From Nocardia arthritidis (lineage in GTDB: Bacteria > Actinomycetota > Actinomycetes > Mycobacteriales > Mycobacteriaceae): a stretch of DNA of 64,000 nt. A program made the position numbers and the translations under genes. The notes beneath the pieces were generated by a model. It had not been told where the DNA came from and searched no databases. It was given only the letters and a program-made list of their open reading frames with translations. The stretch covers positions 4,898,001 through 4,962,000 of the forward strand of contig NZ_CP046172.1 in NCBI RefSeq assembly GCF_011801145.1. Reading direction: 5' to 3'. Positions within the stretch are counted from its first letter, which is position 1; every line of letters starts with the position of its first letter. Shown in pieces: positions 2,120 to 8,131 of the stretch.

Positions 2120-2412
2120 GCGGTGACCACCGAGCCGTTGTTCCGCGTACCGGTGACCATCTGCGGTAGCGATGCGGGCGCGTGGCATCCGAAAAACGTT
2201 GCGGTGGAAGTCATTTCGCGACACACCCGCGAAGTGTGATTTGCTGTGAGTTGTCGGCCGATCGCAGGCCTGCGAAAAAGGGAAAGCGCATCGCCTTCCA
2301 CCTTCAATCTATAGCGGACCCCGGGGCTTGCGGCAAGACCGGGGTGGTGCCGCAGAATCGCTGGCCGAGACCATAACTCGGGGTTGTCCCGCCGGGTCGG
2401 GAAGTTGAGGTT
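2120..2412. other. Intergenic leader of rox
   Basis: About 290 bp without a convincing gene. It holds the RAE and a possible -10 TATAGC at 2310-2315, followed by a roughly 70-nt leader that is conserved with the helR leader. Confidence 0.6.
2311..2370 (+). promoter_or_regulatory. Rifamycin-associated element (RAE) upstream of rox
   Basis: The core GGGGCTTGCGGCAAGACCG lies at 2323-2341. Its centre is the perfect inverted repeat CTTGC-G-GCAAG. From established knowledge, RAE is a 19-bp element found upstream of rifamycin-resistance genes (rph, rox, arr, helR) in actinomycetes. The core here matches the remembered consensus closely. Conservation with the second copy at 5819-5878 extends beyond the core to a downstream block CCGCAGAATCGCTGGCCGA. 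A possible -10 (TATAGC, 2310-2315) places the first transcribed base at about 2322, so the RAE would open the transcript (inference). Confidence 0.85.
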
Positions 2413-2415
2413 GTG

Positions 2416-3837
2416 ATGATTGATGTGATCGTCGTCGGTGCCGGACCGACCGGGGTGATGTTGGCCAGTGAGTTGCGGTTACAGGGCGTCGATGTGCTCG
2501 TGCTGGAGCGGGACGCGGAGCCGACGAAGGTTGTCCGCGCGCTCGGCCTGCACGCGCGCAGCATCGAGATCCTGGACCAGCGCGGTCTGCTGGATCGGTT
2601 CCTCGCGCTCGGGCAGCGGTACCCGGTCGGCAGTTCCTTCGCCGGAATCGCCAAGCCCGCGCCGGAGGGGTTGGATACCGCGCATCCATATGTGCTCGGT
2701 ATCCCGCAACCGGTCACCGATCGCTTGTTGACCGAGCATGCCGTCGAACTCGGGGTGGAGATCCGCCGCGGCCGTGAACTGGTTGGGCTGAGCCAGGACG
2801 AGGGCGGCGTCACCGCCGAACTGGCCGACGGCACCCGGATGCGCTCGCGCTATCTCGTCGGCTGCGACGGCGGCCGCAGTACGGTGCGCAAACTGCTCGG
2901 CGTCGGTTTCCCCGGCGAGCCGACCAGGGTGGAGACGCTGCTGGCCGAGGTGGAGCTGGACGCGCCACCGGAAACGGTGCGCGCGGTGATGACCGAGGTG
3001 CGCAAAACTCAGCTGCGGTTCGGTGCGGGTCCGCTGGCCGACGGCGGCTACCGCGTGGTCGTGCCCGCCGCCGGGGTGGCCGAGAATCCAAGGGTCCCAC
3101 CGACTTTGGACGAACTCAAACAACAGCTGCGGGCGACCGCGGGCACCGACTTCGGCGCGCACTCGCCGCGCTGGCTGTCCCGCTTCGGCGATGCCACCCG
3201 GCAGGCCGAACGCTACCGGGTCGGACGGGTGCTGCTGGCCGGTGACGCGGCGCATATCCACCCGCCGGTGGGCGGGCAGGGGCTCAACCTCGGGATCCAG
3301 GACGCGTTCAACCTGGGCTGGAAGCTGGCCGCCGAGGTCGGTGGCCGGGCACCCGCCGGGCTGCTGGACACCTATCACACCGAACGCCATCCGGTGGCCG
3401 CCGACGTGCTGGACAACACCCGCGCGCAGATCGAGCTGATGTCGCTCGAACCGGGCGCGCGGGCGGTGCGCAGGCTGCTGTCGGAGCTGATGGACATCCC
3501 GGAGGTGAGCCGCCGATTGACCGAGCAGATCACCGCCATCGGGGTGCGCTACGACCTCGGCGACGAACACGACCTGGTCGGCAGGCATATGCGGGATGTG
3601 GCGTTGAAGCGGGGCCGCCTCTACGAGCTGATGCGCGGCGGACACGGGCTGCTACTCGACCGGACCGGCCTGCTCTCGGTGGCGGGCTGGACCGACCGGG
3701 TCGATCACGTCGTCGACAGCACCGAGGAACTGGATGTGCCCGCGGCGCTGCTGCGACCCGACGGTCATATCGCGTGGGTCGGTGACGATCAGCCGGAGCT
3801 GTCCGAACGTCTGTCGAAGTGGTTCGGCGCGGCCTGA
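2416..3837 (+). CDS. rox: Rifampicin monooxygenase Rox
   Basis: 473 aa, the usual Rox length. Start ATG 2416 (a GTG at 2413 is adjacent) follows a GAGG Shine-Dalgarno. FAD motifs are GAGPTG (residues 8-13), [17 protein letters not shown] near 148 and [20 protein letters not shown] near 275. The whole chain, including [18 protein letters not shown] and [20 protein letters not shown], matches what I remember of Nocardia farcinica Rox. That enzyme hydroxylates the rifamycin naphthoquinone and linearises the ansa bridge. An RAE lies about 75-90 bp upstream, supporting a rifamycin-inducible resistance role. Its 3' end overlaps the opposing merR by 49 bp. Confidence 0.88.
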
Positions 3838-5817: not shown

Positions 5818-5878
5818 TATACCGCACCCGGGGGCTTGCCGCAAGACCCGGGTCGTACCGCACAATCGCTGGCCGAAG
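5818..5878 (+). promoter_or_regulatory. Rifamycin-associated element (RAE) upstream of helR
   Basis: The core GGGGCTTGCCGCAAGACCC is at 5831-5849, centred on CTTGC-C-GCAAG and flanked by ACCCGGG...CCCGGGT, making a long near-perfect inverted repeat. It aligns with the rox copy from the TATA (5818) through ATCGCTGGCCGA (5865-5876). A possible -10 TATACC at 5818-5823 would start transcription at about 5830, right at the element (inference). Confidence 0.85.
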
Positions 5879-5962
5879 CCGAAGCGGACATGGGAGTTGG
5901 GTATGCGGGTGCCGTCGTCGACGGATGGGGCGGGATCGTCGAGCCAACAGAAGGAGGGGTAC

Positions 5963-8131
5963 GTGTCGGTTGACCGGTACGAGGACGAATTGCGGTCCGA
6001 GCGCGACTATGTGGCCGGGCTCTACACGCGGCTCGACACCGAGCGCGCACGGGTGAGGGGCAGATACGCCGCGGCGCTGCGGGGCACGGGCGGTACGCCG
6101 ATGGAACGGGATTTCGAGGTGCGCGCGCTGGCGAAGGAGGCCAAGCGGCTGGACGTGGCCGATAACGGGCTGTGTTTCGGCCGGTTGGACACGCTTTCGG
6201 GCGACCATCTGTATGTCGGCCGTATCGGCATTTTCGACGAGGACGATGAATTCGAACCGCTGCTGCTCGATTGGCGGGCGCCCGCGGCGCGGCCGTTCTA
6301 TGTGGCGACCGCCGCGACCCCGGAGAACATGCGCAGGCGGCGGCAGTTTCTCACCCGGGGGCGTCGGGTGGTCGATTTCACCGATGAGGTCCTCGGCCGT
6401 CCCGGCGGCGGCGAGCGCGGAGATGCGGCGCTGCTCGCGGCGGTGAACGCGCCGCGGGGCGCCGGGATGCGCGATATCGTCGCGACGATCCAGGCCGAGC
6501 AGGACGAGATCATCCGGCTGGAGCATCCGGGTGTGGTGGTGATCGAGGGCGGTCCCGGTACGGGTAAGACCGTGGTCGCGCTGCACCGCGTCGCCTATCT
6601 GCTCTATACGCGGCGCGAGCGGATGGAACGCGGCGGTGTGCTGGTTGTCGGGCCGAATCCGGCGTTCCTGAACCATATTTCGCGGGTGCTGCCGTCGCTG
6701 GGGGAGACCAACGTGGTGTTCATGACCACCGGCGATCTGCTGCCCGGCCTGCGGGTCACCGCCGAGGATGCGCCGGCGGCCGCGCGGATCAAGGGTTCGC
6801 TGCGGATTCTGGACGTGCTGGCGGCGGCGATCGCCGATCGGCAGCGGCTACCCGCGCAACCGCTGCCGATCGAGTTGGACGACGTCACGGTGCGCATCGA
6901 CGCCGAGACCGCGGAGTGGGCCAGGGAAGAGGCCCGGGCGAGCGGTTTGCCGCACAACGAGGCGCGGGCGGTGTTCACCGAGATCATCACCTATGTGCTC
7001 GGCGAGCGGGCGGTCGGCCGGATCGGCCGGGGCTGGCTGACCAGGGACGACCGGGAGGCGTGGGAGGCGCTGAGGGTGGACGTGCTGGCCGAACTCGCCG
7101 AGAACGACGCGTTCGCCGCCGCGCTCGACGAACTGTGGCCGATCTTGACGCCGGAAAAACTGCTGGCCGAGCTGTACGCGTCGCCGGATCGGCTGCGGGC
7201 GGCGGGTGCGGATATGGCGCTCGCCCGCACCGACGGCGCGGCCTGGACGGTGTCGGATGTGCCGCTGCTCGACGAGTTGGTCGATCTGCTCGGCCGCGAC
7301 AAACCGGCCGACGAGTCCGCGGAGCGGGAGCGCCGGGCGGCGGCCGAGTACGCGGCGGGCGTGCTGGATCTGATGATCGGCCGCGAGGACATGATGGACG
7401 ACGAGGACCATCTGATGGCCGACGACCTGCTGTACGCCGAGGATCTGGCGGAGCGTTTCCTCGAGCGCGACACCCGGGAACTGGCCGAGCGGGCCGCCGC
7501 GGACCGGGAGTGGACCTACCGGCACGTGGTGGTGGACGAGGCGCAGGAACTGTCCGAAATGGATTGGCGGGTGCTGATGCGCCGCTGCCCGAGCCGGTCT
7601 TTCACGGTGGTCGGCGATCTGGCCCAGCGCCGGTCGGCCGCCGGTGCGACCTCGTGGGAGGCGATGCTGGCGCCGTATGTGCCGGGCCGCTGGGTGTACC
7701 GGTCGCTGTCGGTGAACTACCGCACTCCGGCGGAGATCATGGCCGTCGCCGCCGCGGTGCTCGCCGAATTCGCGCCCGCGATCCGGCCGCCGGAGTCGGT
7801 GCGCGCCTGCGGTGTGCCGCCGTGGTCGAGGCGGGTCGCCGCGCACGAAATACCCGCTGCCATCGAGGAATTCGTGCGCGCCGAGGCCGGTCGCGAGGGA
7901 ACCAGCGTGGTGATCGGCCCGCCGGATGTGCCGGGCGCGGTGACGGCGGCGCAGACGAAGGGTCTCGAATACGACGCCGTGCTGGTGGTGGAGCCGGAAC
8001 GGATCCTCGCCGACGGGCCGCGCGGCGCGGCCGAACTGTATGTCGCCCTCACCCGCGCGACACAGCGCCTCGGCGTGCTGCATTCCGGCCCGTTGCCGCG
8101 GGCGTTGAGCGGACTCGGCGCACCGGCGTAG
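5963..8131 (+). CDS. helR: HelR: HelD-like RNA polymerase helicase, rifamycin protection
   Basis: 722 aa. Start GTG 5963 is set by a strong AAGGAGG at 5951-5957; upstream in-frame codons lack conservation. UvrD/HelD-type superfamily 1 motifs are present: Walker A GGPGTGKT near residue 196, Walker B VVVDEAQELSEMD near 522, and a motif VI-like YVALTRATQRLGV near 695. The N-terminal coiled-coil and LLLDWRAPAARPFY follow the HelD plan. An acidic stretch (EDMMDDEDHLMADD, about residues 473-486) precedes Walker B and may be the primary-channel loop. From established knowledge, HelR proteins bind RNA polymerase, release stalled complexes and displace rifamycins. The RAE 115 bp upstream supports this specific role over a housekeeping HelD. 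Confidence 0.87.
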   Translation: MSVDRYEDELRSERDYVAGLYTRLDTERARVRGRYAAALRGTGGTPMERDFEVRALAKEAKRLDVADNGLCFGRLDTLSGDHLYVGRIGIFDEDDEFEPLLLDWRAPAARPFYVATAATPENMRRRRQFLTRGRRVVDFTDEVLGRPGGGERGDAALLAAVNAPRGAGMRDIVATIQAEQDEIIRLEHPGVVVIEGGPGTGKTVVALHRVAYLLYTRRERMERGGVLVVGPNPAFLNHISRVLPSLGETNVVFMTTGDLLPGLRVTAEDAPAAARIKGSLRILDVLAAAIADRQRLPAQPLPIELDDVTVRIDAETAEWAREEARASGLPHNEARAVFTEIITYVLGERAVGRIGRGWLTRDDREAWEALRVDVLAELAENDAFAAALDELWPILTPEKLLAELYASPDRLRAAGADMALARTDGAAWTVSDVPLLDELVDLLGRDKPADESAERERRAAAEYAAGVLDLMIGREDMMDDEDHLMADDLLYAEDLAERFLERDTRELAERAAADREWTYRHVVVDEAQELSEMDWRVLMRRCPSRSFTVVGDLAQRRSAAGATSWEAMLAPYVPGRWVYRSLSVNYRTPAEIMAVAAAVLAEFAPAIRPPESVRACGVPPWSRRVAAHEIPAAIEEFVRAEAGREGTSVVIGPPDVPGAVTAAQTKGLEYDAVLVVEPERILADGPRGAAELYVALTRATQRLGVLHSGPLPRALSGLGAPA

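Follow-up and report, generated by a model that had tools for sequence, protein, structure and literature searches.

We analysed a 64-kb stretch of the Nocardia arthritidis chromosome (the window; bases 4,898,001-4,962,000 of a single-contig 10.01-Mb genome) that carries two rifamycin-resistance genes, rox and helR, each preceded by a copy of the rifamycin-associated element (RAE), a 19-bp palindromic sequence. Comparison of the two copies with RAE loci sampled across the class indicates that the palindrome is probably the centre of a divergent promoter pair of about 75 bp, with a −10 box on each side. The best explanation we can offer, to which we give an even chance as a whole, is that these are back-to-back promoters sharing a palindromic −35 region, the leftward one restraining the resistance gene until the drug is present, and that rox and helR are two separate rifamycin-inducible genes, each under its own complete RAE.

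RAE copies and their flanking boxes

The earlier note on this DNA had placed RAEs at 2323 and 5831, and both 19-mers are found there without a mismatch to GGGGCTTGCNGCAAGNCC. They are the same palindrome as the RAE described ahead of rifamycin-resistance genes in the literature (PMC10719064, PMC12802891). The elements and the boxes predicted on either side of them are as follows.

2323..2341, plus strand: RAE 19-mer of rox, palindrome core 2327-2337, 0 mismatches to GGGGCTTGCNGCAAGNCC
2353..2358, plus strand: predicted rightward (sense) −10 of rox, CAGAAT, 19 bp past the TTGCGG of the palindrome, from the fixed-distance scan
2306..2311, minus strand: predicted leftward −10 of the rox element, TAGATT on that strand, mirroring the sense −10 in position
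5831..5849, plus strand: RAE 19-mer of helR, palindrome core 5835-5845, 0 mismatches to GGGGCTTGCNGCAAGNCC
5861..5866, plus strand: predicted rightward (sense) −10 of helR, CACAAT, from the fixed-distance scan
5814..5819, minus strand: predicted leftward −10 of the helR element, TAGGTT on that strand, from the fixed-distance scan

With up to three mismatches allowed, the RAE pattern matched the window four times (the two sites on both strands) against 1.04 matches expected, and at least four matches were obtained in 5 of 100 shuffles. The whole genome contained 11 matches at up to two mismatches. Those without a mismatch were two, both in the window, whilst the others comprised a plus-strand match at 888,863 (one mismatch), reverse-strand readings of the three sites and five scattered two-mismatch matches. 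This genome search had been proposed in the earlier note with rph or arr genes in mind; it did return one further site, but the gene that this third RAE precedes (888,863; L012:4864-6511), some 4 Mb from the window, encodes a 526-aa FAD monooxygenase. The latter protein is Rox-like, yet reaches 352 bits against a Rox cut-off of 800. Beyond this genome, exact RAE cores were present in 147 of 394 genomes sampled from the class, with few matches to a reversed control pattern, and in 68 of 151 genomes of the family. With one mismatch allowed, cores were present in 113 of 118 genomes of the genus, a figure that overstates the distribution because the control pattern at one mismatch also matches most of those genomes.

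Reading the flanks of the loci revealed conservation reaching far beyond the 19 bp, and the window's own two elements are alike well past it. A first profile drew on 91 RAE loci, of which 89 had a full core with flanks and 87 remained after a score filter that itself used the boxes had dropped L041 and L100; the extended-element matrix was built from these 87. In the window, this matrix scored 98.4 and 84.9 at the two sites, about −23 and −24 at the same sites read backwards, and −44.3 at the next best position. The spacing scan was run with no score filter, leaving out three perfect palindromes of ambiguous orientation (L072, L073, L079). On the gene side, an xAnnnT box lay exactly 21-26 bases from the palindrome centre (d=21) in 85 of the 86 singly oriented loci, mostly as CAnAAT, and T occupied its first position (−12) in one of the 86. 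At the same distance on the other side and on the opposite strand, xAnnnT was present in 83 of the 86 and TAnnnT in 82. No other distance was shared by more than ten loci, bar one register on the left (45, never TAnnnT). A −10-like box therefore sits at equal distance on both sides of the palindrome, as in a divergent promoter pair, and of 88 loci inspected, 86 have an open coding frame starting on the CAnAAT side. TATAnC was ruled out as the rightward −10, its final base being C in 96 % of loci.

Loci chosen by their protein repeated the key counts without recourse to the matrix. For helR, taking the best 80 of 435 relatives, a core lay within 700 bp in 58, and 56 of these 58 had the leftward TAnnnT and 57 the rightward CAnnnT; for rox (40 of 113 matches), a core was found in 38, with the leftward box in 37 and the rightward box in 37. 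RAE loci are related by descent, and none of these locus counts is independent. Across 238 distinct elements, the inner bases of the leftward hexamer vary (TATGTT, TACGTT, TAAGTT, TAGATT, TAAAAT and others), whilst its T, A and T are kept in 97, 98 and 97 %, respectively; one mycobacterial group has TAAAAT as its box and then GGGG. In M. smegmatis, sites bound by sigma-B have TANNNT as their −10 motif (PMC6529629). At the level of sequence, these data demonstrate the architecture of the element, its fixed spacing, its left/right asymmetry and class-wide conservation ahead of several kinds of resistance gene.

Natural variants of the element were found in four loci. In L247 (rox), neither part of the predicted leftward promoter survives: the palindrome lacks its right half, the would-be leftward −35, and GCGGCT stands in place of the leftward −10; the sense −35 and −10 are intact. 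L143 (helR) is more mildly damaged, with changes in the right half and loss of the first T of the leftward box (GATCTT), again next to an intact sense promoter. The right half is also altered in L214, whose left box is intact and one base closer (TACGTT, 18-bp spacer); in L170 the left box is likewise one base closer and the palindrome is intact. Four such variants are too few for a rule.

Signs of possible leftward transcription

From the leftward −10, a transcript would be expected to start near element position −28, a site with 85-93 % conservation of CC, which reads GG in the transcript. We examined 157 non-redundant elements, being those of 237 that differ at more than 25 of 105 positions. 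Leftward-strand hairpins begin exactly at the predicted +1 (−28) in 69 of them, compared with 2-21 at −14 to −23 and −35 to −55. On the leftward strand the real arms fold better than arm-swapped chimeras (mean −12.57 vs −10.53, sd 0.19), and stems of at least seven pairs based at −27 to −29 occur in 67 of the 157 elements (chimera means 48-52, maximum 64). Several stem positions switch between A-U and G-C or C-G. One of the two window elements displays the corresponding feature:

2275..2299, minus strand: predicted leftward mini-transcript start (2299) with terminator-like hairpin and T5 run at rox, from sequence reading

The hairpin scan of elements found no such hairpin at the window's helR element.

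A second sign comes from genes upstream. In six loci (L079, L032, L042, L070, L285 and L289), the predicted leftward start is followed, 3-22 nt on, by the beginning of a divergent gene that has a recognised domain; the six genes are mutually unrelated (methyltransferase, racemase-like, isochorismatase, epimerase, AraC-type and LigD-type). It is possible that they receive a longer leader from another promoter inside the element. Because the predicted promoter is conserved while its product is not, these loci suggest that it acts in cis.

The left box admits two further readings. It may be the −10 of an upstream rightward promoter, giving tandem promoters P1 and P2, as it can be read forwards as xAnnnT in 83 of 86 loci, AnnnT being self-complementary, and two sense starts have been published for M. 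smegmatis helD (PMC10719064). We nevertheless consider tandem promoters improbable: T stands at −12 in 15 of the 86 loci when the box is read forwards vs 82 when it is read backwards, and the conserved CC at −28/−29 would be left unexplained. Furthermore, the published P1 start precedes the RAE by about 20 bp and fits a TACCCT at −36 to −31, not the left box, as read in L186 and L187; these loci stand in for M. smegmatis since the HelD proteins they encode share 96 and 95 % identity with the HelD of that species. Alternatively, the left AT-rich patch may serve the sense promoter as an UP element, bound by the alpha subunits of the polymerase, with no leftward transcription at all. Its distance from the predicted sense start, about 50-60 bp on the upstream side, is one at which UP elements typically sit. 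A hexamer whose T, A and T are fixed while its inner bases are free and a conserved GG at the predicted leftward +1 suit a promoter better, however, as do the onset of hairpins at +1 and the directly adjoining divergent genes, and an UP element appears quite unlikely.

An inverted repeat might also function as RNA, the RAE then forming a hairpin or an attenuator within the resistance-gene mRNA. In keeping with this, the palindrome is an inverted repeat and the outer arms of the two window elements differ by a compensating change. By inspection of loci, however, the outer arms pair in some elements only, no Rfam match was obtained at the gathering threshold in positions 1-9000 of the window, and the sense mRNA would not contain the palindrome because the predicted sense start lies downstream of it. 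We set this reading aside as highly improbable, the outer arms being unpaired in part of the loci read.

A candidate mechanism and the case for an operator

Under the divergent-promoter explanation, the palindrome would contain two overlapping −35 elements, reading TTGCNG either way, and a −10 would stand at exactly 19 bp on either side. The leftward promoter would combine a consensus-like −10 (TAnnnT) with a small transcript that begins as a hairpin in many loci, whilst the rightward promoter, with its consistently weak −10 (CAnAAT, C at −12), would drive the resistance gene. RNA polymerase could probably be seated in just one orientation at once, and when the drug is absent the leftward promoter would hold the rightward one down. 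Rifamycin-bound polymerase would then fail to complete leftward initiation, the unstable complexes would clear and the rightward promoter would gain, with or without aid from a putative dimeric protein on the palindrome. Taken furthest, the RAE would be a protein-free sensor made of DNA only: a leftward promoter, strong but for the most part futile, would hold polymerase turned from the resistance gene until rifamycin-bound polymerase fails there. We regard that proposal as doubtful, and cis competition as the sensor is to the same degree tentative. The architecture, which is probable, is placed well ahead of this uncertain mechanism because the nearly invariant, operator-like bases 7 and 8 positions from the palindrome centre (d7-8) and a steric-overlap result from B. 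subtilis oppose the protein-free reading.

Both a 2022 review (PMC10719064) and a 2026 article (PMC12802891) treat rifamycin sensing through the RAE as an unsolved problem. As described in those sources, it is a palindrome overlapping the sense promoter and possibly bound by a factor; the leftward −10 and the hairpin come from the present analysis. In the portions of the open-licence RAE literature available to us, we found no mention of the mirror leftward −10 or the leftward hairpin, although the original papers may describe parts of them. Transcription of B. subtilis helD is silenced by a dominant antisense promoter whose spacer is 19 bp, and rifampicin lifts the silencing by arresting that promoter; both antisense promoters of this rifampicin alarm have 19-bp spacers (PMC12802891). 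The helD/pps alarm, like the RAE as read here, places two promoters of unequal strength ahead of a rifampicin-protection gene, the sense one weak and the antisense one stronger, with the same spacer length. It differs in that its promoters are convergent, 39 bp apart and colliding, whereas the RAE pair would be divergent and overlapping at the −35 (PMC12802891). The RAE does not fit a convergent alarm of the B. subtilis type, since the two boxes read away from one another. Bidirectional promoters of E. coli offer another likeness, namely pseudo-symmetric DNA that seats polymerase either way with one direction blocking the other; binding is mutually exclusive, and competition arises if one direction is active enough (PMC12825309). 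There the symmetry is that of a shared −10, whereas in the RAE it would be that of a shared −35 palindrome.

Several observations weigh against the divergent-promoter explanation. The d7-8 bases of the palindrome are C in 96-100 % on both arms, with d6 variable on both, a pattern that promoters leave unexplained and that a dimeric protein would explain. In B. subtilis, shortening the distance until the promoters sterically overlapped abolished induction, so simple overlap is not the mechanism there (PMC12802891), and five tested E. coli bidirectional promoters had basal activity too low for competition (PMC12825309). A rifampicin-stalled polymerase at the leftward promoter should block the rightward one too unless quickly released. 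Leftward transcription from the RAE is itself predicted, as is its 5′ start. With regard to the hairpins, the sense strand also folds better than its chimeras (−11.83 vs −9.52), because the hairpin arms form an inverted repeat, and 90 of the 157 elements, including the window's helR element, have no stem of at least seven pairs at −27 to −29. TTTT follows the hairpin in 12 of 67 cases on the leftward strand (chimera means 5.7-7.2, maximum 12) and in 2 on the other strand. No difference in hairpin score was found between loci with co-directional and with divergent upstream neighbours (p=0.80). Hairpins accompanied very close divergent genes in 2 of 15 loci vs 37 of 86 (p=0.04), a post hoc comparison made without four loci whose gene starts are doubtful and of which three bear hairpins.

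Alternatively, the RAE may be the operator of a putative dimeric rifamycin-responsive transcription factor overlapping the sense −35, where the drug would derepress or activate and the leftward promoter would be accessory or silent. We see this as a serious contender whose chance falls somewhat short of even. The symmetric conservation of GGnCTTGCnGCAAGnCC, with a variable centre and d6, exceeds any requirement of a −35; a factor of this kind has been suggested in PMC10719064 and PMC12802891, and induction is lost on deletion of half of the RAE (PMC10719064). What an operator leaves unexplained is why the opposite strand has a consensus-like −10 at precisely the mirrored distance, why hairpins begin at its predicted +1 and why divergent genes start there.

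The rox and helR locus and RAE-linked genes elsewhere

The genes of the locus are listed below.

2416..3837, plus strand: rox, rifampin monooxygenase (NF033145, 886.1 bits, cut-off 800; full-length match to 5kow, 745.5 bits, and 5vqb, 743.2 bits)
5963..8131, plus strand: helR, class II HelD-type RNA polymerase recycling/protection factor (NF041258 motor_HelR_2, 1389.5 bits, cut-off 1100; NF041465, 1449.6 bits, cut-off 1051)
4610..5452, minus strand: alpha/beta-hydrolase, a neighbour of the two resistance genes (PF12697/PF00561)
3789..4613, minus strand: MerR-type regulator after the hydrolase, likewise a neighbour (PF13411)

Both resistance proteins exceed the curated cut-offs of their families, an equivalog cut-off in the case of Rox, in agreement with the identities first proposed for them, and by sequence rox and helR are ordinary, already known kinds of rifamycin-resistance gene. 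They align over nearly full length with solved structures of the same families (HelR matched HelD 6yxu at 1201.4 bits, covering residues 4-719 of 722), and nothing unusual was seen in either protein. We take the solved Rox structures 5kow and 5vqb to be those of N. farcinica and S. venezuelae, and 6yxu to be the HelD of M. smegmatis. The rox start is most likely the ATG at 2416, whilst that of helR is uncertain, its open reading frame being open from 5897 and the conserved protein running from about 5963. About 2.1 kb separates the end of rox from the start of helR, a gap that holds two oppositely oriented genes. The predicted leftward promoter of the helR element (window 4610-5819, minus strand) lacks a hairpin, is aimed at this hydrolase-MerR pair and might drive that operon. 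Nothing was found in favour of the MerR gene as the RAE regulator, the RAE being class-wide; the distribution of the MerR gene lay outside the scope of the analysis. A second Rox-family gene in the window (31,892-33,304, plus strand) scores 811.8 bits, above the curated cut-off of 800, and scanning the window with the extended-element matrix found no RAE-like element upstream of it.

The pairing of rox and helR was initially described as a complete module, wording that the locus does not sustain: there is no operon, the hydrolase/MerR pair lies between the genes on the other strand, and a third RAE is found about 4 Mb away. Among 118 genomes of the genus, a Rox match was present in 97 and a HelR match in 89, some under the curated cut-offs, and 77 had both. 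The two genes lay within 5 kb in 1 of the 77 (the genome of this window), within 15 kb in 5 and within 100 kb in 15, against about 0.1, 0.3 and 1.9 genomes expected under random placement. Related genomes are not independent, and closeness may be hidden by fragmented assemblies, as both genes were on one contig in only 26 of the 77. The counts of 5 and 15 exceed random expectation, so that RAE-bearing genes are loosely linked beyond chance, and the present locus is an extreme case. The tight co-localisation singled out earlier is thus genuine in this strain but recurs in no other two-gene genome at up to 5 kb, and a conserved two-gene module is ruled out, the 3-kb arrangement not being kept in the sample. 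Plasmid searches returned 33 and 85 matching records, and in the first none spanned 80 % of the 5.7-kb locus as one place. Six helR loci (L116, L127, L144, L162, L175 and L179) carry an Rgt-like gene between the element and helR, indicating that shared control of two resistance genes takes other forms too; for the L179 gene, Rgt was the best NCBIfam family, at a score under its cut-off.

Co-induction of rox and helR by rifamycins, a further claim of the earlier note, is likely by analogy with other species. In S. venezuelae, rox and helR each have an RAE (PMC10719064). Rifampicin treatment of M. smegmatis leads to strong joint induction of MSMEG_2252, the Rox homologue, and MSMEG_2174 (helD); these genes and two arr genes are among the most rifampicin-induced, with comparable induction in a sigB mutant (PMC6529629).

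Elsewhere, the genes downstream of 204 elements with a readable frame comprised 130 encoding HelR or HelR-like proteins, 19 Rox, 11 other FAD monooxygenases and 44 others. The last include groups of 20, 11 and 7: sampled members of the first were Rgt-like and those of the second Rph (a fragment), in both cases under the family's cut-off, and those of the third were Arr, over its cut-off. There are also 2 ABC transporter genes among the 44. RAE-type elements at L278:1046-1846 and L280:878-1804 precede DrrA-like ABC transporter ATPases, possibly involved in rifamycin efflux. In Nocardia brasiliensis (L162:3678-4571, minus strand), such an element lies ahead of an alpha/beta-hydrolase beside helR, a possible rifamycin esterase that is kin to macrolide esterases, under their cut-offs; direct comparison found no clear kinship between it and the window hydrolase at 4610..5452. 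At L042:997-1473 (minus strand), an RAE-type element precedes an F420-dependent PPOX-class oxidoreductase, with the isochorismatase gene starting 14 nt after the predicted leftward start.

The locus itself, as a close pairing of two known genes, is of lesser weight; what is new is the two-way promoter reading of the element. The extended element provides a sharper signature than the 19-mer for locating rifamycin-response genes. A fixed promoter architecture across the class would be a concrete, testable answer to how actinobacteria sense rifamycins and, if true, would make the RAE a divergent actinobacterial counterpart of the convergent two-promoter alarm of B. subtilis, linking both responses.

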